From Nymphaea colorata (Eukaryota; Streptophyta; Magnoliopsida; Nymphaeales; Nymphaeaceae), in contig NC_045143.1 of assembly GCF_008831285.2 (NCBI RefSeq), forward strand, positions 806,001 through 870,000: a stretch of DNA of 64,000 nt. The letters run 5' to 3'. Positions 14,223-63,998 of this stretch are shown here, piece after piece. Each line of letters begins with the position of its first letter. The first letter of the stretch is position 1. The notes under the pieces are model-generated. The model had not been told where the DNA came from. It searched no databases and worked only from the letters and a program-made list of their open reading frames with translations. The translations under genes were made by a program, and so were the position numbers.

Positions 14223-15616
14223 TCATGGTACGGCCTCCAAGTCCTGGAAGTACTCGTGCTCAAGGGCACTGCGCGCTGTGATTCTTTTACTTGGTTCCAA
14301 GCAAAGCATTTTCTGAAGAATACATAACCGCCCAAGTCAGATCATAGATGTTATAAAAAGAATATTTTCTGATGTCAGGAATTGTTGGTTCATATCTCGA
14401 GCCAGTCAGTCGTGAAGTGGAAGAACACGATTTGCAAGAACATATTTCATTTTCAGTCATTCATTAGAGAAGATAATCACCTTGAGAAGATCAACGCCCA
14501 CCGGATCAAGACCAGGAACTAACGTTGCCATATCCTGTACAATAGAAGACAGTTACATAAAAGCATTAAGCGTTTGTTTGGTTGTGTGTGTGGGCCTGTG
14601 GCTGTGTGTGTGCGTGTGACAGAGAGAGAGAGAGAGACAGACAGACCTTAGGAGCCCACTTTGGAAATGATGACTTGTAGTCAGGCAGTGATGTCACCCC
14701 AGGCCAAGTTTCCTCAGTAGGGGTACCCAGGACTCTTCAGAAAGAGGAAAGGGAAGATTTAATAAAAAATTTTGGCAAGGATATTGACATGCACAAATCT
14801 TGCGAACTAGTTAAACATAAAACTCAAAGAAACCTGAATATTTTGAAGAGCTCATCAATCTCAGAATCACCAGGGAATAGTGGTCGGTGGTTCACCATCT
14901 CTGCAAAGATGCACCCTACGGACCAAACATCAACTGGTGTTGAGTAATGGTGTGATCCAAGCAGGATTTCTGGTGCCCTGTACCATAATGTCACGACCTG
15001 CAATGAATACATTAGACAAGATTGTCCAACCTAGAAAAGCAAATTAATAGGAAAGATATAAGATCATTAATCAAATAAGAATAATGATCATGTCTAAGAA
15101 TGATGAAATAGCAACAAGTGAAGAACTATGCAGAATAAAATGCAGTAACTTGACAAAGGCAACTTGGAAATAAATGCTTCTGAAAAACACAAAAAAACCA
15201 ATTAAACCAGTCACAACTAAGGGGAACAAAGAGTTAACAATAGAATACCTCATGAGTATATGTCCTCACTGGGATACCAAAGGCCCTAGCCAGGCCAAAA
15301 TCGGCAAGCTTTAAAGCATTAGTACTACGATCTATCAGCAAATTTTGTGGTTTCAGATCCCTGTGAAGAATCCTACGAGAATGGCAGTAAGCAATCCCAC
15401 GAAGCATCTGATAGAGGAATATCTGCATAAAAATTCAAAAGAAAGCACAGATCAGAAGACTCAGAGTTTGATCACGTAGAACACAAAACATCATATGTGA
15501 TAATGATTCAGAAAGAAGGCATATTACTTATGCTGGATAAATTCGAGCAAACAAGCAAAAAATACACATGCATGCATGTGATTCGTGCCTATACATCGAT
15601 AAACATTTGCATGCAC

Positions 15617-15665
<49 letters not shown>

Positions 15666-18600
15666 TAGCCACCTAATGCAATGTGTCATGCACAAACCTT
15701 ACATGAAAAGGCATCGCTAAGAATATAACATTTTCTGACAAAAATCACAAAGAGACTAACTTCTGTCACCTCTCTACTTCCTTGGCCATTCCAATTCTCG
15801 TTTATGTATAGTAAATGTCTCCACAAATGCTTTTTAGATAACCATTGGCAGAGTTATTTCTATTCTGGTAATCCTATATTTTACTGAAAGCAACAGAAAT
15901 TCATTATGTCGTCAAACCATGTCCATAAACGATTTATGCACATTTATGAAGCACATTGTTTCAAGTCGGCAGTCAGACTACTGAAGTTGCATCGAACATA
16001 TATGCTGAAACCTAGACATTTGATGACACGAGACTAAGTAAATGTCCCCAAAGTGGGCAGAACCAAAGCAAGGACATTGTAGAAGTTGCAGGCAAGTACA
16101 TAAAGTTACACCACATAAATTGACACAACCTGAGAAAACATGATTAAATTGAACAGGGCCAATACACAGTTCCAGGTAAAAAACAATTCTAATCACCTGC
16201 AAAAACGTAAGTTCAGCTATCAACATCACATCTCATATACAACCAGACTAAGTTATGGAAAAAAGTACTGAAAAATGGGTTGGCAACAGTTTAAGAAAAT
16301 AAACAGATGAGGTCCACATCCTAAAGACATCCAATGTACACAATGATGCACATGATATCAAGGAAAAGGGACAAGACAATCATATTCAGAAACCAGCAAT
16401 AATTTTTTTGTTCTCTATGCATTGGTGAGTCCTAAAGGCAGACCTATCCAACAGATCTATTTGCAAATACTGATAGACATAAACATGAAAGCCTCCTGAT
16501 GGGATAAACTCTATGGAAACAAATATCAGAATTTTCTCCAATGATTTAAAAAGAAAACCTGAATTTCCTTATCAATGAACCTGAACGCCAAAAAAAATGT
16601 AGACAACCTTGAGCGCAATGTTCCTTGGGAACAGAAATCATGAGAACTGATTAAATCTCCAAGGTCTTACATTCCTGCATTTGTGATGATGAGCAAACCA
16701 ACATCTACATATTTTTTATAACCTTACAAAGCAATGAATAAAAGGACAAAAAAAGTAGCAAGAACTAATACCCGATAATCACAAAAGATATATTAAGGAC
16801 ACAGCAATCAGTTCCACAAAGGAAACACAAAACAGTGAATGAGCGTTCAGAAAAAGTAATATAACTAAGAAACCAACCTCCAAAACACAGAAGAGAAGAA
16901 AGGAAAAACTATGACACCATGATCCATGTTCTTGCGCACCATACTGGGACAAGTAACGAATTCTGCTAGTTCTGGACATAGAATAACATGCTCAGGTTCT
17001 CTAGATAGCAAAACGGCTTTAAGTGTTGATTAAAATAGTAGATCCATATAACAGCTAAAATGAGAAATTGTAGGATACATTTTCTTTTCCAGACAAGTTT
17101 GTGTAACAATTTTCTAATAGCTATATCTGACGTGAAAAATTTACCTGATGTCATTTTTGGATTCAACCATTTCCAACATCATCATGGAGTAGATACATTG
17201 AAACTATGTCACATGGGTGCAGGCTATGATACACGGGTATGGCTATGAGGGTGGAGTACCCATCCGGTACCAGTACGACACCGGTACAGGTACGGGTACG
17301 GGCTTGAGTACGGGATGGTGCGGCGTTGACCGTACTGGGTACGGTCAACGTACGGAATGCCATATCCGTCTATTTTTCGATACGGTCAACTTTGACGGAG
17401 TTCAAATCCGTCCGTTTTTATTTTTAAAGATTATTTGATTTTAACTTTTAAAACCATTTTAACGTTACAAAAAAAAGAAACGAAACCCTTAAAACATTCG
17501 TTCCTCTGTTCTTACCTCTCACCGAGCGACAGCAGCGGCGACTGGCAACGACTTCAGGCGAGTGTGCAGCGGCAGTGGCGACTGCGACCGGCGACGACAA
17601 CGGCGACTGGCGACGGCAACGGTGACTGGCGAGGGCAACGGCGACTGGCGACTGTCACGGTATTTTCTTTTACTTTTTTCATTTTTCTTTTCATTTTCAT
17701 CTGCTCCACCCCTGCCTTCACCGCCGGTGATGACCGCCGACGGTGACTGCGACCACCCTTGCACACTCGCCGGAAGCCCTCTCCTACTGCTCGAAACCCT
17801 CATACTGAAGTATGGGGATTTGAATGTTAGAACTTCTAGTTTATCCTCGCCGGTCTACCACAATGCCATCCCTTTTTATCTTATGATGTATCAGGATCAA
17901 AATCGAATCAAGAGTTTATCTTATTCCTTTTGCTTTCCCCATTTTCTATGTAAAACTGTCTGAAATAGGGATTTTTGTAAGTTTAGTAATATGAACAACG
18001 ACAAGTAGTTGGCAAGCAAAGATGGCCCGTCTGATCTGCTTGTGTCTCCCGCTTGCCAGAGGCACGTGCATATGCCCCATGAACTGCCTTCACACCAATT
18101 TTCGGCATCGATGACAAACTGACACGATGATAGGCGTTTTGCTAGCATCTAATGGCGTCGTCTTTGTACTTTATAGAGTGTTTGGAGTTATAGATTTTTC
18201 ATCTCTGATATGTATACATATGTATATTATGTTGGTTGTTTAATTAAAGTTAATATTAACTTAAATCATATTTTGATTTTGTTGCAACTTGCAGTTCAAG
18301 ATCATCCAAGTATTGAGATGTTAATCCAGAGGACATTGACGTAGAACTTGAAGGAGAACATGAATTGCATGCTCTTAATATGGATCTTACAGAACCTGTT
18401 GTTCCTTCTAATCTTGATGATGCAACTGAGGAGTGAGGAGAATGAAAATCAACAAAGCTAATGTATTTTGAATGCTAATTATGAGACTGAGGATAATGAG
18501 AATCAAGACTGATAAATTTTGGATTATGATTTATGAATATGATAATATGTTATTATGTTTGTAATTTTTGATATATATATGTGTGAATATGTTATTCTGT

Positions 18601-18783
18601 TTAAAATTTTTTGACATATATATGTGTGTGTACGGCCGTACCCCCGTACCCAAGTTTTTTAAAAATGGTCCGTACCCGTACCCGCACCGACACCCATACC
18701 CATGTGACATAGGGTGCAAGGTGCGAATACTGGTGTTGGTGCTGGTGCGGCAACTTTTTTTAAAAAAAATTAAGTGTGGGTGT

Positions 18784-18841
<58 letters not shown>

Positions 18842-21800
18842 TTCACTGAACCGTGACTCTAACCATCGTCACATATATCGTGTACGGATATTATACGACG
18901 ATGAATTACTCGGGTATAATATGACAAAGTTGTATATCTTGGGAAATCTCGGCAAATTTTTTTAAAATTTAAAACATTTAATAAATCCTGAAAATTATAA
19001 AAAATAAAAAAATAATAAAAAATACAAAAAATGTCACGTTTTTTATTTTATGGCGTTTTTTTAAAAAAGACGCGTCTAATTGCCATTTTATATGGATGAC
19101 TCATTTTTTGCATATTATACGCATTTTTTTTCAATTAATACGCATTTTCTGTGACAATGACTCTAACTAAGGGTGACATTTATAGACATCAAATGAGAGC
19201 CATCCATCTTTTTGATCAAATGGCCCTCATTTGGCTCAATTTTTTATTTTATTTATTTATTTATTATTTATTTTCCATTTGTGCCTCCTATTGGGGCATG
19301 GATGGAGAAGGAGAGGAAGGAGGGATCCTCCCTCCCACCGACTGGTGGCGAGGGGAGTCTCGCTGCCGTCAAGCAATGGGAGGGAGGATCCCTCCTCCCT
19401 CTCCTTCCCCACCCCATCCTCCTGAACATCATCAAGAGGATGTGGAAGGAGGTTTCCTTCGCCTAATGCCATACGATGGAGGGGGACGGTCGGGCAGCAC
19501 CGGCCATCGGCCTGGGTGCTGCCGAAGGTGGGGAAGGGAGGGTGGAGGACCGGAGGTTGGATGGGAAATACTCCCCACAATAGATTACCCAAAAAAAAAA
19601 AGAACTTAAAAAAAAAAGAGTAAGCCAAATGAGGTCTATCCAATAAAAAACAAAGGATGGCCCTCATCTGATGTCCAAAAGTGTCACCTTAAGTTAGATT
19701 CACGATTCAGTGATTGTGTGTGTGTGTGCCTATATATATAGAGAGAGAGTTAATTAACTATTTAGTAGCCTATGTATCTACATTTACATTTTAGCCAGTC
19801 AAGTGTGCATTTCAAATGGTCAGTTTTGGCCCAATTCAGCTGACTGCACCGGAAGTACTATGTCAAAAAAGCACCAACATCAGGGTTGACATGGGTGTTG
19901 TAACCATTTAGGAGCACCCATGTGACATAGCATTAAATAGATGAGAAAGCAGATAAATGAACATGACCATTGCTTGGTTCAAAACTTTTAGGTGTCAATA
20001 ATGTCACCTCCTAAGAAATAAACAGAAAAGGAAAAGCAGTTCCTACATAATGGGAAAATGGCCGTAGTTGCCAAGTAATAAAATGATCCATAAAGCATAA
20101 TTATCAAGTATGTATCCAGAATTCAAATAGTGTATTCAGATATCAGGCTTCATATTTAAGTAACTAACTAATGCACTTCAAATTAGTGAAGCATATAACA
20201 TCGTGACAGCATTATATATATATATATATATAGTGATTAACACCACCAAACAAAGAAAATGAAAATGCATCAGGAAAAAGTGAAACAACAGTTCCCTTGA
20301 CTGCTGAACACAGTGCACGGACTGAAAAGTAAAAAATATTGCCAGCTTCCAACTATATTGACATAATATCTTCAGAAATTGCAGTCTCCAGGTAAATATG
20401 AACTTCAGGATTGTTCAGTGAATATACTAAAGGTGCTAAATTATCAAGTGTACAAGGAAAATGTCTTCCAAGTGATGGGGCCAATTCTCTCATTGCTTTG
20501 ACTAATCAGGCAGCAGATCGTTTTTGATAGCCATCAAAACTAACGACATATTTCAAATCCATATCATCTTCACACTGGCAGCTTTTGTGCCTTGGACATA
20601 TCCCAGAACCTTAAGCATGTGCTAATCAAACAATAGGAACGATGAGTTAAGCAAACTGATTTTAATCTTCTGTGAGTCAGAGAAAAGGAAATGTTTCAGT
20701 CGAATACATTCCATATATGAGGGAAGAAAAGAAAGATCAAGGCTGAATTGCTCAGCATTGTGCAACTGTCGCAGGACAAGGAAAGGCTTCAATTGTCAGA
20801 CAAAAACAGATGAGTTCACATAAACTTGGTATAAGACACCAATACGGGGCAACCTGGGTCAAAAATACTCCCTCAACTGCTAAAAGACCTGTAGGATCAG
20901 CCCAGCTAATTCTACAATATGCAGTTGCATTTCTATGCAGGAAGGAAAGATCTCACCTACTTTTATCAATTGGGGATTCTTAGCAAGTTCTGGGCAGGAA
21001 TCCATGTGCTTTTTGAGGTCCAGGTCAAGATACTCAAAGACTAAGTACAAGCGCTTTTCACTGTGCACAACATCTTGCAACCTGTATTTCACAATAAGCA
21101 TGTAGTTGAAGGTTAAAAAAGGCACGATATATTACAAAACATCTCAAGACAGTAAGCTATACAAAATGCAACAGAAAGGTGTTACAAAATCGTACAAAAA
21201 TAAAGATTAATAGATGGGATAACAATTAAACATGACCTATTATTAGAGCTGTAAAAGCAAACATGCAACAGTCATCAGGTAAATGCGTCAAGAGGAAGTA
21301 AAATCCATTTCTAAGCAAAAGCAAAATTTTCGTACTCCAAGAGCTTAGCTTGCAAGATGAAAGAAAATTAAGGTAACAAACAAACTGAGTTCTCATAATG
21401 GAAATATTTCATATACCTTTGCTGCCTCGAGTAAAAGCAATTAATTAGTCCGTTTAACAGTAGGACAAAAAAAAAACAGGATATTGCAACACAAATTTAC
21501 TACCAACAAGTAATTGTTGACAATTAAATAGACCCGTTAATGGCATGAAAACTGTACCAGCTCAAAAAGGTTGTCTAGAAAATACCAGCTCCAATTGAAC
21601 GACAACCAAACATTCAGTAAAAACAAGGACAAGAAATGCACAATGAGGACAAGACTTCTAAACCAGGAAAGAAGCAAGTTAGAACCTGACAACATTGCCA
21701 TGCTGCAATTCTTTGAGCAGGGAAATCTCCCGTAATGCTGTGCTAGGCACACCCTCATCTTCCTGCTCAAGACGGATCTTCTTAAGAGCAATTGTTGTGT

Positions 21801-22017
21801 TAGTCAAACGATCACGGGCCCTATACACAACACCATAGGTTCCTTCCCCAATCTTCTCAACTTTTTCATACTGACCAAATGGCAAAAGTTAAATGTTATC
21901 CACTTGAGGTCAGGCATCTTTTGAACTATTTATTCAAGCAACATAAGAAAGGATAATTCAACTACAAACAACCCCAAACTGGAGAACTTTGTGCAGGAAA
22001 TGGCTAACCTGCTCCAT
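14223..22017 (-). CDS. CDKA: Cyclin-dependent kinase A (cdc2 type), 294 aa, PSTALRE variant
   Basis: Eight exons join in phase: 22009-22017 (only MEQ), 21686-21870, 20961-21081, 15249-15422, 14834-14997, 14647-14734, 14481-14534 and 14223-14312. The 294-aa product is a Ser/Thr kinase of the CDKA class, which drives G1/S and G2/M when bound to cyclins. Visible are the glycine loop GEGTYG with regulatory T14/Y15, K33, HRDLKPQN (D127), DFG (D146), the activating T161 in RTYTHE, and the [10 protein letters not shown] region near the CKS face. Length is exactly the family norm. The C helix reads PSTALRE at 45-51 where CDKA nearly always has PSTAIRE. The DLDLKK, GIPVR and DSEIDE contexts are CDKA, not CDKB (PPTALRE/PPTTLRE). 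Intron 3 is 5.5 kb and transposon-filled. A leader intron (about 22663 to 22061) is likely. Confidence 0.96.
14616..14636. repeat. AG microsatellite in CDKA intron 6 boundary region
   Basis: A short gagaga run follows a tgtgtg-rich stretch (14576-14620) just outside exon 6. It is ordinary simple-sequence DNA. Confidence 0.7.
15619..15662. repeat. AG microsatellite in CDKA intron 3
   Basis: A nearly pure (GA)n run of about 44 bp, interrupted once by aaag, lies within the large third intron. Confidence 0.85.
17530..17660. repeat. GC-rich CGGCGACTG minisatellite
   Basis: Imperfect head-to-tail units of the form ggcgactggcgacggcaacg make the densest GC tract in this AT-rich intron. It produces spurious long arginine- and alanine-rich ORFs on both strands. 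Confidence 0.75.
18786..18843. repeat. TA run followed by T tract
   Basis: A (TA)n run of about 38 bp passes directly into about 20 T residues, next to the left end of the inverted-repeat element at 18844. Confidence 0.85.
18844..19712. mobile_element. Inverted-repeat (foldback/MITE-like) element in CDKA intron 3
   Basis: CACTGAACCGTGACTCTAA at 18844-18862 is nearly the reverse complement of 19694-19712 (one or two differences). A second, inner inverted pair begins near 19166 (gggtgacatttatagacatc) and 19690. The core 19300-19560 contains self-complementary ggaggatcc-type G/C-rich tracts. This suggests a foldback element inserted beside a TA tract, perhaps two nested insertions. No coding capacity was recognised. 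Confidence 0.6.
20214..20232. repeat. Short TA microsatellite
   Basis: A tatata run of about 19 bp lies in the distal part of CDKA intron 3. Confidence 0.8.
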
Positions 22018-22762
22018 GAACTCGCACGCGACAAAACTTTGTCGACAAACGAAGCAGAACCTAGAACAAAATCATCATGATCCTTGTCATAATATAGAAA
22101 AACAGATAAATGACACAAACCAAGTTCGTAATGGAAAATGATGAGGCAATAGAAGACCACCGGATCGTAAGATCCAACACAACCATCTATATTGCAAAAC
22201 AGAACTTCTCAAATCCTTCCATCAAGGAACATGAACAAATAAAATCGGAATCATAATTGAATCCAGAAAAAGGAAACGAAAACAAGCAACCATCCGGAAA
22301 TAAAAACTGCACAAGCGACCATCCGGAAATGAAAAGTGCACAAATAACGCCATCTTGGCTAGCTAAAATCGCATGGAAACCAATAACAATAACCTCCGAT
22401 CAATTAACCAACAAGCAATGCAAGCGTCATTTGTCCGATGAAGCTCAAGAAAATGATGGATGAACTCCAGAGGCATCACAAGCAAGCACAAACGAAGCGC
22501 AACTCCCGACACAAACCTGACTACGAGAACTACAGCGTCCCCGAACTCAAGGGCGAGATAAGGGGGAAACGGCGGAAGGCATTGGTTGCAACAAAGCCAG
22601 ACGAACAAAATAGAGGAAGAAGAAGAGAAAAGAAATCTTAGAGAAGGAGCAGCCGCAGTCACCTTCCGATCAAGCGCTAGTCGGCAAGCCCCCGTCGCCA
22701 GCCCTCCCCCCGCTTCCGGCAAGTCGACGACGGTCACTCGGTCAGAGAGTAGTTGTGGTGGT

Positions 22763-22784
22763 GGAGAGAGAGAGAGAGAGAGAG
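22763..22784. repeat. GA/CT tract in the CDKA leader
   Basis: A (GA)n run on the plus strand reads as (CT)n in the CDKA transcript, close to the predicted transcription start. CT-rich leaders are common in plant housekeeping promoters. Confidence 0.75.
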
Positions 22785-22820
22785 GGAGGGAGCGCTGCGG
22801 GGGACCCCGCTTGCTGCGAA

Positions 22821-22828
22821 ATTTATAT
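22821..22828 (-). promoter_or_regulatory. Probable TATA box of CDKA
   Basis: ATATAAAT on the minus strand lies upstream of a CT-rich leader. A start near 22790 would give a leader with a splice donor near 22664 (GGAAG then GTGACT) and an acceptor TTCTAG ending at 22061, shortly before the ATG at 22017. Confidence 0.5.
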
Positions 22829-25800: not shown

Positions 25801-26665
25801 TTGGCTGCTTACCAACTTCGCCTACCTCCTTGAAAGATCGAACTTAGAATTTATATTTCCTTTGCAAAACCCCTTGTCACTAAAGTCAAACTTGGATAAT
25901 TAAATATAAAAACAGCTTTCGTCCAATCATTATTGGAAAAGATACATGAAACTTTTTAAAATGTTGAAATAATATCTTGAAGTGTCAGTAGATGACCAAA
26001 GTGGCATGTCCCATAACTACTGACTGCATCATCAGGCGATTCATCTTACTAGAAAGATACACAAAATCGACCTGTATTCTCCGTACTCAATTGGCCTGAG
26101 CATTTTCAAAATATTCCTTCTTAAAACATAAAAATAATAGTTAGGTCGATACAGGATGCTCTGTTGGACTCTTGGACAAAACCCTGAAGGCGCACGTGTA
26201 ATCTGGATTTGATCGTATCACGATGGTCAAAATTTCATATTGGATTTGGGCCGTAGTCTTCTGTTCGTTCTAGTTTCGAAGATCCAAGAGGAGCTGCTTT
26301 AACCTTGGAATTCCCTTCCACTTGCTATTTTGGATTTTGAAGTCTTAAGACAAACCCATATCTGATCTGTTAGTGCCCGTGACATTATCAAGAAGGACGC
26401 CGATATTCATAGATGTGAACCGAATCCGGCTTGTAATGTTGCGGATTTGAGTTCAATGAGCGTATGTGATAAATAAATATTGAAATAATAAGAGTGTGCA
26501 AAAAATAAAAACAAATAATGTTATTGAGCTAAAAATGCTCGAATTAATTGAGCCAGTTATATAGAAGGCATGAAACGTGAGAAGGGGACCTAAAACTCGA
26601 GTGTCTGAGGCATGCGGGGCGTCTTGGCTTGGGCGGGGTAGAGAGGAAAATGTTCAAAAAGTGAA
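22830..26665. other. Intergenic, AT-rich, no gene seen
   Basis: No protein-like ORF was found. The stretch holds a CT microsatellite near 23547-23564, degenerate ggatccatatcc-type repeats near 23640-23810 and 23870-23930, a GA run near 24123-24136 and a duplicated phrase around 24944-25040 (attgtaacacccaagtaaaa and its variant). A weak tRNA-like sequence lies near 24241-24320. Confidence 0.5.
26656..26660 (-). terminator. Pol III T-tract terminator of tRNA-His
   Basis: Five consecutive T residues on the minus strand lie six bases past the 3' end of the tRNA gene, the usual RNA polymerase III stop. Confidence 0.7.
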
Positions 26666-26737
26666 TGTGGCTGCTGGGATTCGAGCCCAGGTCTCCACGG
26701 CCACAACGTGGAATTCTTACCACTAAACTACAGCCAC
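26666..26737 (-). tRNA. tRNA-His (anticodon GTG)
   Basis: The 72-nt gene folds into a full cloverleaf. The acceptor stem GTGGCTG pairs with CAGCCAC, the discriminator is A, the D arm contains TAGTTTAGTGGTAAGAA, the anticodon loop TTGTGGC sits on a TCCAC stem, and the T arm is CTGGG-CTCGAAT-CCCAG. There is no intron and CCA is not encoded. The G-1 residue typical of tRNA-His must be added after transcription, as the genomic base opposite is not part of the stem. A T5 terminator follows. It appears functional. Confidence 0.95.
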
Positions 26738-28154
26738 AGGTGATGAAGCAAGATGCAAAAAGTATTTACTAAAAATGACCATTTGGCGGATGCGACACCA
26801 TTAGTTTTTTCCGTCGGTGCCAGCGTCCCACCGCTCTCTCATTTTTCCTTTTCCAATTCGATTTGTGATGTCTTGAACAGGACGAAGATTGGGAATCATA
26901 GTTTTCTAACCAGGCTTGCATTTCTTGAGGACAATTAATTCTTACCATAACCCCACCTTCTTCCCTCTCTCAATTAGATAATAAAATTGTTGAGCAGCTC
27001 CTATTGTACGTCTCAAGGCTTGACCAAATCCTAGCTGAGTTCAAATCCCGCTTACATATAAGGAATTAAGTATGCGAAATTGTGAATGGGTAGGATTCGA
27101 ATCATATGTACTCTTTATCATGTGTTTTTTGTTTTTATGTTCACATATTCAGATTTGAACGGGAATGAAAAACTCTATTACCAGATCCAAAACTCAAACT
27201 GAATTTACAATCTGAGTCCGATCTTTTGGTTCACGCCCAAGTCCAAATCTGACTTTGAAACTAAAATCCAAACTGTGTTTATTAGACCTTATAAGGGATA
27301 ATAGGACATTTGTTTCAAAGGGTCATTTATGATAGGAAAAATGGGTCATTTGAGAAGAACTTCTTCTTTTTTTGATGAGTTAAATCTGATCCTAGTCTAA
27401 ATCCAATTGGGTATTTAGTTTAATCCAAATTCAAATCCGATTAAATGTCATCTTTTTTTTCTTTTTTCAATCCAGTTCCTTAATCGAAATTCAAACATTT
27501 TTTTTTCATATGCTATTTTTTTTAAGTGATTCAATCTAAGTCTGGTATAAGTCTTATTTTTTGACATCCCTGCCTAAAGACATGTTGAGACTAAACCTGC
27601 CGAGGTAGAGAGACTAGAAAGAGTTATCCGGGCTCAATTATCTAAATGCAAAAAAAAATGGGTCAGTTTGCGCAAGTTAGTGGCTTGTTTATATGAAGAC
27701 CACTTTTAAAACAAGAATCCAGCAATTCGGAACTCCATTTCCAAACTTACACGCAATAAAATCAATTTTATCCAAATTGGCGCATATCAGCCCACGCGAC
27801 AACCGACCCAAAAACTGCCCTCAATCGGCTGATGCAGCTGCATGTCCATTGGATATATTGAAACTTATACACATTTTTTACGAATTTAGAGACATTTCTC
27901 CACAGAAAGCTCGTGTAAAAAGGAGATTGGAAAACATTCCATCTTATAAAAGAAGCAATGACATGGGGGCTCCAAACAGGAATGCTCAGAGATTGAACAT
28001 GCATATGCATGGTCAACAAATTACACAGCTTCGATTGATACATGGAACTAGTCAGTCTTTGATTAGATATAACCCTTCCAAGAAGCAGCCAAAGAACACC
28101 TACTGCAACAAGAAAAAGAAATGAAGTAATCTAGCAGCTCAAGCAGTTGATTCC
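26738..28154. other. Intergenic, no gene seen
   Basis: AT-rich DNA with degenerate repeats of the gatccaaat type (27150-27440). The last part may be the 3' untranslated region of the zinc-knuckle gene. The 143-codon plus-strand ORF at 27693-28124 has no recognisable features. Confidence 0.5.
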
Positions 28155-30686
28155 TCACCTATATCTGGTGAATCCACGTTCAAAGTTGCGGGCTGAAGGA
28201 CACTCATATGCCAAATGGCCGCGACCACCACAGGTGTGGCAGATCATAGACACAGCACAGTCCCTGGTGGTATGACCGTGTTGGTTGCAGGAGCGACAAA
28301 GTATATCCCTCAATGGAGCACCACCATCCAGCCCAGCTTTTGGGCACTGCCGTGCAACATGGCCGGAGATGTTGCACGAATTACAAACAGGTTCATTTGT
28401 GCAATCACGTGCAAAATGTCCAGTCTGACGGCACTTGTTGCAGGCCTTGTCGTTCGTGCATTCCTCGGCTAAGTGCCCTTGCTTGTAGCAGTTGCTGCAT
28501 ATCATTGCCTCACCCGGTCGGAAAACTGCGCTGTTGCACACTCGAGCTAGATGACCAGTCTTGCCACAGACATGGCAAAGGGGCTCGTTTGAGCACTGGC
28601 TGGCCATGTGCCCTGGTTCACGGCAGTTCCAGCACATGGTCGTTGTGGTACACTCGGAAGCAATATGCCTTCAATAAAGAAAGAATCAGCGAAAGACCAT
28701 TTCCAGAAAAGCACAAGATGAATATAAGACATCTAGAAACTCCACAAAAAATTTCTAACTGTATAGCTTTTCAGATCAGTGAGTTAACCAAGTTGGTGCA
28801 ATTGTGGTGCGAACATTGTGAATGCAGAAACCCGTTGTATGATTTGCCAACTCACCCAGGAAGCTGACAGTTGTTGCAGACTGCTTCATTTTGACAGTAT
28901 CTCGCAAAATGTCCAGGTCGTTTGCAGTTATTGCACAGAGGACCCCTGCAAAGGAGACAGGAACAACTCTGTTCAGCCTAGAAACCAAATGAAACGAAAA
29001 AAACAATGCAGGAAGCCTACCAGAAAAATATAGATGCATGTCAGTTTTTCAAGTAATAGTTACATAAAGCATCTAACAAACATAATGCACTGCAAATCAT
29101 TTGCAAGATGGACCAAACAGAAGCTACGAGCCATCAAGTACAGAAGACAACCACCAATTCTAGCCGATATGATGTTCTGATACGAGAATCCCATCTTTAG
29201 GACAACGTAAGAACAAAAACAGTTTTGTATTGCATATATCCTTCTTGTATCCTAATAAATTCAGCAGATGCCCAAGTGGCAGTAGCTGTATGAGCTTCAT
29301 TGCCAAATACTCACAAAATATTCCATGCTTGGGATGTTCAGACACTTTAAACCATGAGAAATAAATTTCTAATAAAAGTCATCATCCTTGAAGCTTCACA
29401 GTGCTATATCATAACGACAAGCACAGCATGCATCATATGCAACATAAAGTGGAAAGGACATCTGTATATAGGACAAGAATGACTAATTTACAGGAAATGA
29501 GTGTGATTATGATTTCCAATTTAGAACAGATGATCCAATTACAGATTTGTACCTTGTATACGACCTATTCAATTGGAGAATACTGAAACTGCAGTTTTAA
29601 AAGAGGAAAAGGTGGCAGGACAAACAAATAGCAAAAGAATATGAAAACAGTTCCAACAAAACCTTAAATGCTCATAATAATTAGATCATGAGCTCATAAA
29701 AGTTAAATGACACTTTCTTGAAGAACTCAACTTTACAAGATGTTGATGCAAAATAGCAACAGAAATAAATACAGAAAACCAAGCAATTTAGTGGGGGACA
29801 GGTCCCATTCTCTCCCTACTTGAGCTACTCCACACAAAAATAATCACAGAAACCTGGCACAAATCGGCCAATCTTGACTTGCTATTAAAGAAGAGATTTA
29901 TTAACCCACTGAGAAATGGTCAATTTCTCATTAGTACAAAGCCCCCATTTCAAAAAAGTGCACATATCAAATTATTACTTCTATAAGTTTTAGGTACTTA
30001 TCGTTTCTTTCCAATTTCAGTTTTTGCTATGCGGAAAACAGATATTGTTTCTAGTTAGGATTGAAAACTGATTAAACGCTTTCTTAACGACTCCATAATT
30101 GCTAGTTTTCCAGTTCATTTTTCTCACCTTGCCAAACATGCATGCTCACCGAGAAATAAGAAACAAATTTAACAGAATTAATTTGACTCCAAAAATTGCA
30201 CATACCTACATAAAGATATAACTGTAAATTTGAACAGTTTATAAAATTACTTGAACTCTAAAATAATTTTTCCTTGGTATTTGCCTGTAAATTGTAAGAT
30301 TTTCTTATTGATGTCCTTTATCGCTTTTTCATCAATAAACAGATTCATGTGCTAATCAAGATATCATCAACTCTTTCTTTCCCCTGGTATTCATCTAGTA
30401 CAATAGCTTCTTGCAAATTAATTTTATGGTATCATTTCATTTATTCATCCTTCTCATCGCCCCTTGGCCCGCCCCTAAGCAGATCACTAGCCCCAAATCA
30501 CTGACAAAACTTCTTCAGTAGTAGCACAAAAGGCTGACGCTCAAGAGGGTATTACAGCAAAGGACTCAAAAGGAAAGCAGACCTGGAACTGCGATAATCC
30601 CTCCTATATGGTGCATCACGATAAGAAGCCCGTTGACTGCCACGAAATACACGAGATCGTGGAGGACTTCTACTCTGAGGACACAT
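28155..30686 (-). CDS. CCHC zinc-knuckle protein (CNBP/GIS2-like), 235 aa
   Basis: Three coding exons join in phase: 30583-30686, 28856-28945 and 28155-28668. The protein has an Arg/Ser-rich N terminus (SRSPPRSRVFRG), then nine C-X2-C-X4-H-X4-C knuckles starting at residues 39, 58, 77, 96, 122, 141, 160, 189 and 208, and a short basic tail. It matches plant relatives of CNBP/GIS2, which bind single-stranded nucleic acids and act in translation or RNA metabolism; the specific target here is unknown. In-frame stops lie just upstream of the ATG, supporting the start at 30686. A slightly different upstream splice at a CCTCAG acceptor (30672-30677) would change the first four residues. A noncoding exon 1 ending at 31433 with donor GAG/GTCAGT is predicted. 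Confidence 0.93.
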
Positions 30687-53242: not shown

Positions 53243-56200
53243 TCACCAGCCCATCAATGTCCTCCTCACCCTGTCAACAATCTGATGTCTTGCTCGGTCA
53301 TTGCTGAGAGGGAATTCGCGTGTATCATCCAAAAGGAACCTGTAAACTTCCCATTGGCGCTCAGACGTCGAATGCCTCCCAATCTCAGCCTATACCAGAA
53401 GATACCAAATGTCAATATAATTTAATAGATGCCAGGGCCCAGCACATAGCAAGTTGGGACATCTAGATTCTAGAGTTGGTATGTTTTCCATCTTACCGAA
53501 AAAATGCAGATGCCCAGTGCTTTCAGGGCAAGGGTAACATCGTAAAAGACGCGAGGTCGTCCTTTACCACATAATTCAACTGGATTAGCAATCAAGAGCT
53601 CAGTATCGGGACCGCGGTTTGCGATTGTCAGGCGCAGTGGATAGAGCATTTCCATCCTCAGACGTGAAAATATGCTCTCCTGTTTCTCTGGACCTACTAT
53701 TTTTTTCCCATCTGCTTGCACAATGAACAGATCCAGCTCACAGTAGCCCTTCGGATTGGATGAGAACCGCCCATGAGCAATCTAAACAGGAATCAAAATC
53801 AAGGAATCAGCAAGACAGCCATTTAGAGAAGAGACCAATGAAATCAAAAGTTAGAAGACAACCTTGATTCCGCAGTCCTTCAAAGTTCTCATTATGTCGT
53901 AGAGAAGACACTTCTGATCGAGACACTGTATTTGAAGTAATGTATGTGCAGGACTTAGAGAATTGTCTATGGACAAGGTAGCCTTCTTTAGGCGTAAGAT
54001 ATCTGGAACAAGGGTTTGTGAACAAATTTCTGCTTCTGATAGATCAGAGCAGAATAATTCATCAGCTACAACTGGAGGCAGTGAAGAAAAGCCATGCTGA
54101 TAAGATTCATATTCTGGACCAGCCGGCTGCAGTTCACAACTCTGACAGGATTCGCCCAGAACCTCAGTTAATCTTGCACAGGTGTCTTCCTTCCTTTGTT
54201 TGGTGTGCAACAGCTCCCTAAAAAGAAGATCAAAAGGGCGCAACTGATGCAAATCAGAATCCAAGTAATAGTAATTCTTTTGAAAAACTCATAGTCCAAA
54301 GCCAAATATAAGAACAAACTCATGTCCTAAAATTTTGACTATCGTCTCTGCGCACATGGATACATGTACTTGACTACGAGCAGAAGGAAAGGCAAATTTT
54401 AGCTACACAAGAGGTAGACCATATGTGAAAGATACAGAAAGTGACAGGCCAATTTTAGCTACTTAAGCAAGTTTCCACGTCATCAAACAAACCTGAAGCA
54501 GGAACCCTATGACCTTAGCAAGAAAAAAGGAAACGAACTAACCTGCAATCCGTGATGAAGAAGAGGTCAACAACACCTCCATCGGGGGCTGTTGACACTT
54601 TAACTTTGTGAATCATTAGCTCGAGCTCAGTGAGGACATGAGTGACATCTGTTACTCGGAGATAAAAGGAGAAAACAGAAAGAAACTCAGAAAGTCACCT
54701 CCGCGCCAAAAAGGAGAACGATAAACAGTGGGAGATAAAAATTTACCATTCAGAAGTCCTTTTCTATCGGAGCAAATGAACTTCAACAAGTATACAGAAG
54801 ATTTCTGCGGCTTTGCCTCAGGGATATAGTATATCGGAACAGAACAGGAAGGACATATGGACAATAGCCTGGTTTTCAAGTTGGACCATCTTATGGGTCT
54901 GAAGGAGCCAGGCTGAGGCACCACCCAGAATACAATATAGCACCATCTACCATCAGTGAAAATATCTAGCACAATAGAAGAAACAGCAAGTTATCGTCTG
55001 GCTGCATAGTCGGATTTTTAACCACTCCCAGCGAATATGCATTAAAAAGACATAAATAAGTGGAGATGTTACTCGCACAAGAAAGCTAAGTAATTCTTAA
55101 GAGAGCAACAGGTCCTAGCTCCATATGATTAACCAAACTAGATAAAACATGCAATTTCTCAACCAGAAACAACCATCTTTCAGGCATGCATTCAAGAAGC
55201 AAGCTCACGGTATTTGAGTAATTTCAGCTAAGCAGGGAAATTTTGTGCGTTTATCACGTTATTTTCAGTCACATTCTAGCCTTCACAAAAAAGATAATCA
55301 AGCAACAACATGTGCAACAAGATGTCCTACAAAAACTTACCTCAAATTCATGCAATTAGTGATTCAGGAGAATACTACCCTAAAAGCAGAGCATAGTACA
55401 TCATTCACACATTCGGAAGCGGATCCTAGGTGCCCTTATTAATTAGCGACATTATTCAAATGCATACACATTAGAAAGAAAAAACAGACAACTGAAGTAG
55501 AACAATTATCAAAAATTCACATCTACCATGTTCCACAAAGAAGTGAACTAAGTATTAATGCTACCTAATGATAACATGACCAAGGCGCAGATCTGAATTT
55601 TTTCATCTTTGTTGAAGGGCTAATCTTTGAGCAACTGTCTCAGCCAGTATAAAATTTCAGTTACCATGTTTCTGCAACACATTACTCATAAATTCCTTCA
55701 TCACTGGCCAACAACGCGGTCAAGGAAGACCGATCAAGCATGCAATTTTGCGTTCTCTCATATCCTAAAATTTCTTAATTGGTTAACCGAATACGGAAAC
55801 TAGATTTTCTGCGCTAGCACCATCCTCTGCAGTACATCTAGTATAGCAAAAGAATTAAAAAAGCAACCGGGAGCTCTCCAAGGGACTGGAACCAAGCAAA
55901 GGGCAAAAACTCCAAGCTATGCGCATGAATTCAATGTAAACGACTGGAGGAGTTCACCAATCTCAAGAATTTAGCAGAAAATAAGCAGATTCTGCATTTT
56001 TAGAAACCAAAGTCACATCAAGAAAGAGATCAAAGGACGGGGAACCATCGTTAGTTCATATCACAGGAAAATTCAAGAAAATTTATTGGTTCAAAGAGCG
56101 AGACATTCTTTGGAAACCTAAAAGTTTCCGGAACAGAGAGAACGCAATTAATCATCGATCAGCATTACTGGGAAACGCCACCTCCATCTATACTCCGGCT

Positions 56201-56735
56201 TTTGCAGGATCGGAAGAGAGAGAGAGAGAGAGAGAGCATGAGATCCTAGATTTTCAGAAACGGCAACAGTAGGCAGCATTCCCGGAAAACACAAGCTTCC
56301 TTCGGTGATCCAGCAGTCGAAGAATCTCCCCGCCCAAAAGAATAAGCAGACGAGGACAACAGTGCAAACTTCCAAGCTAAACAGAACTCTAACGCACTCC
56401 AAAGAAAACAAAGGCAATAAACCGGAGCTCCACCGACGCCTCTCGGGCTCCTCTTTTCCTTGTTAGCCACCGAAGGCCAGCAAAATAGAAAGTTTCACAG
56501 GCAACCAACTCTTTCAGAAAAGGCATTTAAAAGCAAGCGAGAGAGGTGAGAGGATCGGACCAAGACACCGGAAAATCTTACCTCCACGGTTGATGCTGAG
56601 CCCGAACTCGAGGATTATCCAGCAGAGGTCACACCCGAGCCCCGTCTTGTTGGGGCAGTTGACGGTGATGACCGCCGGCTCCCCTGCTTTCAGGCCATGC
56701 CGGACGAGCACAACGTCGTCGCAGGGCAGGCCCAT
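53243..56735 (-). CDS. ACT-domain repeat protein (ACR9/ACR10-like), 421 aa
   Basis: Six exons join in phase: 56582-56735, 54747-54965, 54543-54648, 53863-54217, 53497-53781 and 53243-53389. Plant ACR proteins are soluble ACT-repeat proteins thought to sense amino acids. ACT units are visible at residues about 20-100 (VITVNCPNKTGLGCDL, then RWCYIVFWV), 110-160 (LLKFICSDRKGLL) and 253-315 (LLQIQCLDQKCLLYDI, DLFIVQADGKKI). A last ACT-like region follows (RGPDTELLIANPVEL, then GKGRPRVFYD and AEIGRH). The end GW before the stop is also seen in the family. The length fits ACR9/ACR10. The third ACT unit has Cys263 where the family normally has the glycine of the K-G-L-L motif. The start MGLPCDDVVLVRHG aligns with family N termini. 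Function is inferred from family only. Confidence 0.94.
56215..56236. repeat. GA microsatellite in ACR intron 1
   Basis: An (AG)n run of about 22 bp lies in the 1.6-kb first intron. Confidence 0.8.
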
Positions 56736-57011
56736 CTCGCCGCCGGAAAACTCACAACTAGTCGCTCGCCTTCCCCCGAGAGGGGAAACCGACAGGTTCT
56801 CCGGCTAAGGACGCGAAACTCCTCCCATTTAGAGGAGACAATAAAAAAAATACGGCAGAAAACAGAGCCAGCAAGAGAAAGACAGTGAGGAATACCCCGA
56901 TGGTATCCTAGGGACGGACACCGCCGGCCGTGCGCCGGAAAAATGGCCGGACGCGGGAGATGGCGCTCTCCGAGACAGAACCAGCACGAGGGCTCCCTCC
57001 ACCCGCAGCCC

Positions 57012-63677: not shown

Positions 63678-63998
<321 letters not shown>

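Follow-up and report, generated by a model that had tools for sequence, protein, structure and literature searches.

The window, the whole 64,000-nucleotide stretch of DNA analysed, contains a complete CDKA gene on the minus strand at 22017-14223, with eight coding exons that together provide 885 bases, including the stop codon, and encode a protein of 294 amino acids. A tblastn search with Arabidopsis CDKA;1 as the query located the main exons, and the exon ends were then set from the splice junctions. All seven coding introns (138, 604, 5538, 251, 99, 112 and 168 bp) are GT-AG introns, and the 294 codons are read through without a stop or frameshift. Coding exon 1 (22009..22017, minus strand, as are all the exons) is a nine-base coding stretch, ATGGAGCAG (MEQ), that holds the ATG and is followed by a GTTAGC donor. 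An intron of 138 bp separates it from the kinase exon, coding exon 2 (21686..21870), which encodes the glycine-rich loop with T14/Y15, K33, the PSTALRE helix and E51. Exon assembly places coding exon 3 at 20961..21081, coding exon 4, which contains Y160 and T161, at 15249..15422, and coding exons 5, 6 and 7 at 14834..14997, 14647..14734 and 14481..14534, respectively; coding exon 8 (14223..14312) carries the TGA stop. T14, Y15, K33, E51, D127, D146 and T161 are all present in the translated kinase. A lost start codon was considered, as the kinase exon alone has no in-frame start (LLPFGQYEK), but was rejected because the upstream mini exon supplies the ATG. A retrocopy or an old pseudogene was likewise rejected, in view of the introns and the intact frame.

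Upstream of the coding region, a putative promoter end and 5′-leader were delineated by eye and by script at 22061..22827 (minus strand). There is a TATAAAT sequence near 22827, a CT-rich leader exon and a probable 5′-UTR intron that ends with TTCTAG near 22062, and the assumed spliced leader (179 nt) has no ATG. These elements would fit the ninth (5′-UTR) exon of known CDKA genes; the cotton and Arabidopsis CDKA genes are described as having 9 exons and 8 introns, 7 coding and one in the 5′-UTR (PMC3382222). The third coding intron (15423-20960; 5,538 bp) contains inverted repeats and runs of AT dinucleotides. The inverted repeats, with 19300-19337 paired with 19377-19414 and 19209-19250 paired with 19609-19650 among the 25 of 64 pairs listed, and the AT runs are perhaps a small inserted transposon.

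Several other features lie elsewhere in the window. On the minus strand, a reading frame at 63681-63998 is taken, from its sequence, to encode histone H4; its best Pfam match is CENP-T_C, with the Histone model below the cut-off. Four open frames of a gene for an ACR9/ACR10-like ACT-domain protein lie at 53473-56804 (minus strand), and a protein with six CCHC zinc-knuckle stretches is encoded at 28158-28670 (minus strand). ARAGORN identified a tRNA-His (GTG) at 26665-26738 (minus strand); Rfam agrees that this is a tRNA and, at gathering scores, reported nothing beyond this one tRNA.

The protein encoded by the CDKA gene matches the Pfam Pkinase model over residues 4-287 (256.5 bits), and its nearest PDB chains, among the best 60 of 132 matches, are those of CDK3, CDK2 and CDK1. 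Identities and tree distances to the plant CDKA, CDKB and CDK2 reference sequences used for comparison are indicative. On this basis, the protein is 81.0%, 84.0% and 86.4% identical to Arabidopsis CDKA;1, rice CDKA;1 and a eudicot CDKA, respectively, but only 66.9% identical to human CDK2 and 58.7% to CDKB1;1, and its overall sequence is therefore nearest to CDKA rather than to CDKB or CDK2. In a tree of seven sequences, the window protein and six references, a branch with 100/100 support parts two CDKBs from four CDKAs (the window protein among them) and CDK2, and the window protein lies at a path length of 0.16-0.26 from the other CDKAs, 0.77 from CDK2 and 1.42 from CDKB1. The other three inner branches are unsupported, including the CDKA/CDK2 fork, so that it is identity and path length that place the protein with CDKA rather than CDK2. 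The gene resembles CDKA genes in number of coding exons (8) and coding introns (7), and the Thr14/Tyr15 and Thr161 sites are present. It departs from them in the hallmark motif, which reads PSTALRE rather than PSTAIRE and so fits the CDKB pattern P[P/S]T[A/T]LRE, whereas its sequence does not group with CDKB, from which the fully supported branch separates it. Since sequence and exon number are those of a CDKA although the strict motif fails, the gene is assigned here to CDKA, with its motif regarded as a variant. The full-length CDKA of 294 amino acids proposed by the first-pass annotation is thus confirmed by the spliced frame, the Pkinase domain and the alignment to reference CDKAs. These likenesses point to a land plant, probably a flowering plant, as the bearer of the gene.

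The PSTALRE motif, residues 45-51 of the cyclin-contact helix, was also predicted from inspection of the sequence, and exon assembly and translation bear this out. It is encoded at 21727..21747 (minus strand) by the codons CCT AGC ACA GCA TTA CGG GAG; the interval originally assigned to it, 21721-21741, overlaps the true site but is about six bases too low, the motif actually reading from 21747 to 21727. Codon 49 (21733..21735, read from 21735 to 21733) is TTA, as had been reported, and encodes Leu where the three reference CDKAs have Ile in the alignment. When the motif was sought as a loosely defined DNA pattern, there were 7 matches versus 2.59 expected, a result uninformative on the one-residue change. 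The activation segment contains RTYTHE, with Y160 directly before the activating T161. The initial observation that this residue is Phe in most plant CDKAs holds for the three reference sequences aligned; Tyr is present at 160 in the aligned CDK2 and CDK3 PDB chains and in the reference CDKB1;1.

Leu49 had been attributed only to CDKB, as PPTALRE, and to animal CDK5. Both do have Leu, and in solved CDK5 chains (PSSALRE) it occupies the position equivalent to 49, but this list was incomplete as the exact PSTALRE sequence has been printed for other kinases. PSTALRE is given for CDKB of non-flowering plants (PMC13237563), for the CDKB of the green algae O. tauri and Botryococcus (B. braunii) (PMC8533097), for the CDKA of the red alga C. 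merolae, the CDKA2 of the brown alga E. siliculosus and of the diatoms P. tricornutum and T. pseudonana and the CDK1 of the slime mould Dictyostelium (PMC4392632, PMC2872877), and for CDK1/2/3 of the Symbiodiniaceae, which are dinoflagellates (PMC7686383). The CDK5 motif is given as PSSALRE in a review (PMC11218289), and moss CDKB is reported, as unpublished data, to have PATTLRE (PMC3840290). PSTAIRE is considered the hallmark of CDKA (PMC13237563), is identical in all of the CDKAs of PMC8533097, those of its algae included, and is also documented in CDKA of Phalaenopsis, peanut and Arabidopsis. Among the matches listed from the openly licensed literature, chiefly titles and the starts of abstracts, there was no land-plant CDKA with PSTALRE. 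PSTALRE in a CDKA is then present, uncommon in print and conservative and, with PSTALRE or Leu49 and Tyr160 known in related kinases, the change is less surprising than was originally suggested. Relatives of the window CDKA were not found in viral contigs, with none among 6 and none among 250 pattern matches. In prokaryote contigs there were none among 92 pattern matches and four among 559, these four being bacterial loci of 26-30% identity that were not used.

The three reference CDKAs agree with one another at 236 alignment columns, and at 15 of these the window protein has a private difference. Leaving out each reference CDKA in turn gave corresponding counts of 17 (Arabidopsis), 10 (rice) and 4 (the eudicot CDKA), and the terminal branches in the tree have lengths of 0.11 for the window protein versus 0.13, 0.033 and 0.026, respectively. 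By these measures, the window CDKA is about as diverged as Arabidopsis CDKA;1 and more diverged than the rice and eudicot CDKAs. For cotton CDKA, the reported identities are 91.5-94.2% to the CDKAs of nine other plants, including two conifers, and 86.7% to that of Arabidopsis (PMC3382222), so that the window protein, with identities of 81-86%, falls on the diverged side. A strongly accelerated paralog was considered and rejected, as the number of private differences does not single out the window protein. Four of the 15 (I49L, M58L, I63V and F160Y) match the reference CDKB1;1, and M58L, F160Y, A240S and K288Q match the reference CDK2. Gene conversion from a CDKB, to which the matches of L49 and V63 with CDKB1;1 could point, was also rejected as the principal explanation, since Ser46 and other residues nearby remain CDKA-like.

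The gene probably encodes a working CDKA in which the conservative change from Ile to Leu at residue 49 is near-neutral or mildly tuning, an interpretation drawn from sequence comparison. As several related kinases have the same helix, PSTALRE is probably a minor variant here. The protein would be made and would bind cyclins through this helix, with residue 49 predicted to pack hydrophobically on the cyclin and Leu filling that contact. In CDK2, Ile49 is reported to make a hydrophobic contact with cyclin E1 (PMC4463590). Activation would occur by phosphorylation of Thr161, with a role at G1/S and G2/M as for other CDKAs, and Leu49 would presumably alter cyclin affinity or partner choice modestly, if at all. 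The protein may have an altered cyclin preference, for example one shifted to the mitotic cyclins in the manner of a CDKB. A temperature-sensitive cdc28 yeast is complemented by Oikopleura CDK1d, which has PPTSLRE and is specialised for M-phase (PMC8832800), but as its helix also has S46P and A48S, this complementation does not isolate Leu49. The same paper, citing yeast screens, describes every mutation of the cdc28 PSTAIRE helix as lethal, and so a neutral effect of Leu49 cannot be presumed; helix variants within that paper nonetheless rescue cdc28 yeast. CDK2 with P45L has weaker stable cyclin binding but near wild-type activity in lysates, and rescues cdc28 yeast (PMC3111755).

Other explanations are less probable. 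A duplicated CDKA might have shifted to a CDKB-like mitotic duty through Leu49 and Tyr160, with another, PSTAIRE-containing CDKA retaining the general role. There are precedents for such a shift in Oikopleura CDK1d, which has its own cyclin B (PMC8832800), and in the diatom CDKA2s, for which transcription of a PSTALRE kinase peaks at G2/M (PMC4392632, PMC2872877), and the four private differences shared with CDKB1;1, together with identities to the reference CDKAs that are below those printed for cotton (PMC3382222), are consistent with a specialised duplicate. Arabidopsis CDKA;1 is, however, equally diverged, by its private differences and by its 86.7% identity to cotton CDKA, M58L and F160Y match CDK2 as well as CDKB1;1, and Ser46 and the surrounding sequence are still CDKA-like, so that this shift of duty is unlikely. 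That a land-plant CDKA independently gained PSTALRE and Tyr160, and with them a CDKB-like mitotic cyclin pairing, is likewise unlikely.

The change could also be fixed or segregating, perhaps lineage-wide, with no functional consequence at all. The substitution is conservative and Leu does occur in other CDKs, but the CDKAs of PMC8533097 and of Phalaenopsis, peanut and Arabidopsis have PSTAIRE, and complete neutrality is improbable. A single first-position change, ATA read as TTA, would suffice for the motif to result from a base error in the assembly; this is very unlikely, given that the frame and splice sites of the remaining gene are intact over eight exons and that the 14 other private differences suggest true divergence. 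Least likely of all, and hardly credible, is a silent or just-decaying duplicate. The 15 differences at sites common to the three reference CDKAs could be read in this way, but the 294 codons hold no stop or frameshift and none of the 7 introns departs from GT-AG, and the TATA-like box and the assumed leader, free of upstream ATGs, also speak against it.

The seven-residue motif serves to sort plant CDKs into classes. Here a gene that is a CDKA by its remaining sequence has the motif reported for non-flowering-plant CDKB, and the motif alone can therefore misfile genes. The gene is also a natural allele for probing what share residue 49 has in the choice of cyclin. Should a CDKB-like pairing be true, it would constitute a natural, near-single-residue test of the CDKA/CDKB distinction, comparable with Oikopleura CDK1d and diatom CDKA2.

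When compared with known systems, the CDKBs of non-flowering plants and green algae have a seven-residue motif identical to that of the window CDKA, but the window protein is CDKA-like elsewhere and does not have the insertion that follows residue 71 in the reference CDKB1;1. Diatom CDKA2, which has been grouped in a stramenopile CDKA/B-like cluster, C. merolae CDKA and Dictyostelium CDK1 are likewise CDK1- or CDKA-like kinases with PSTALRE, but from distant lineages. Oikopleura CDK1d shares Leu49 and differs in S46P, A48S and in changes elsewhere. Animal CDK5, activated by p25, also shares the Leu, and differs by a Ser at position 47 and in its overall sequence. The closest likeness is with the plant CDKAs. 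The coding exon number equals that of the Arabidopsis and cotton genes, which the probable 5′-UTR intron also matches, and the length of 294 amino acids and the T14/Y15/T161 sites are shared with Arabidopsis CDKA;1, rice CDKA;1 and cotton GhCDKA; the reference members of this class, however, have Ile49 and Phe160 where the window protein has Leu49 and Tyr160.
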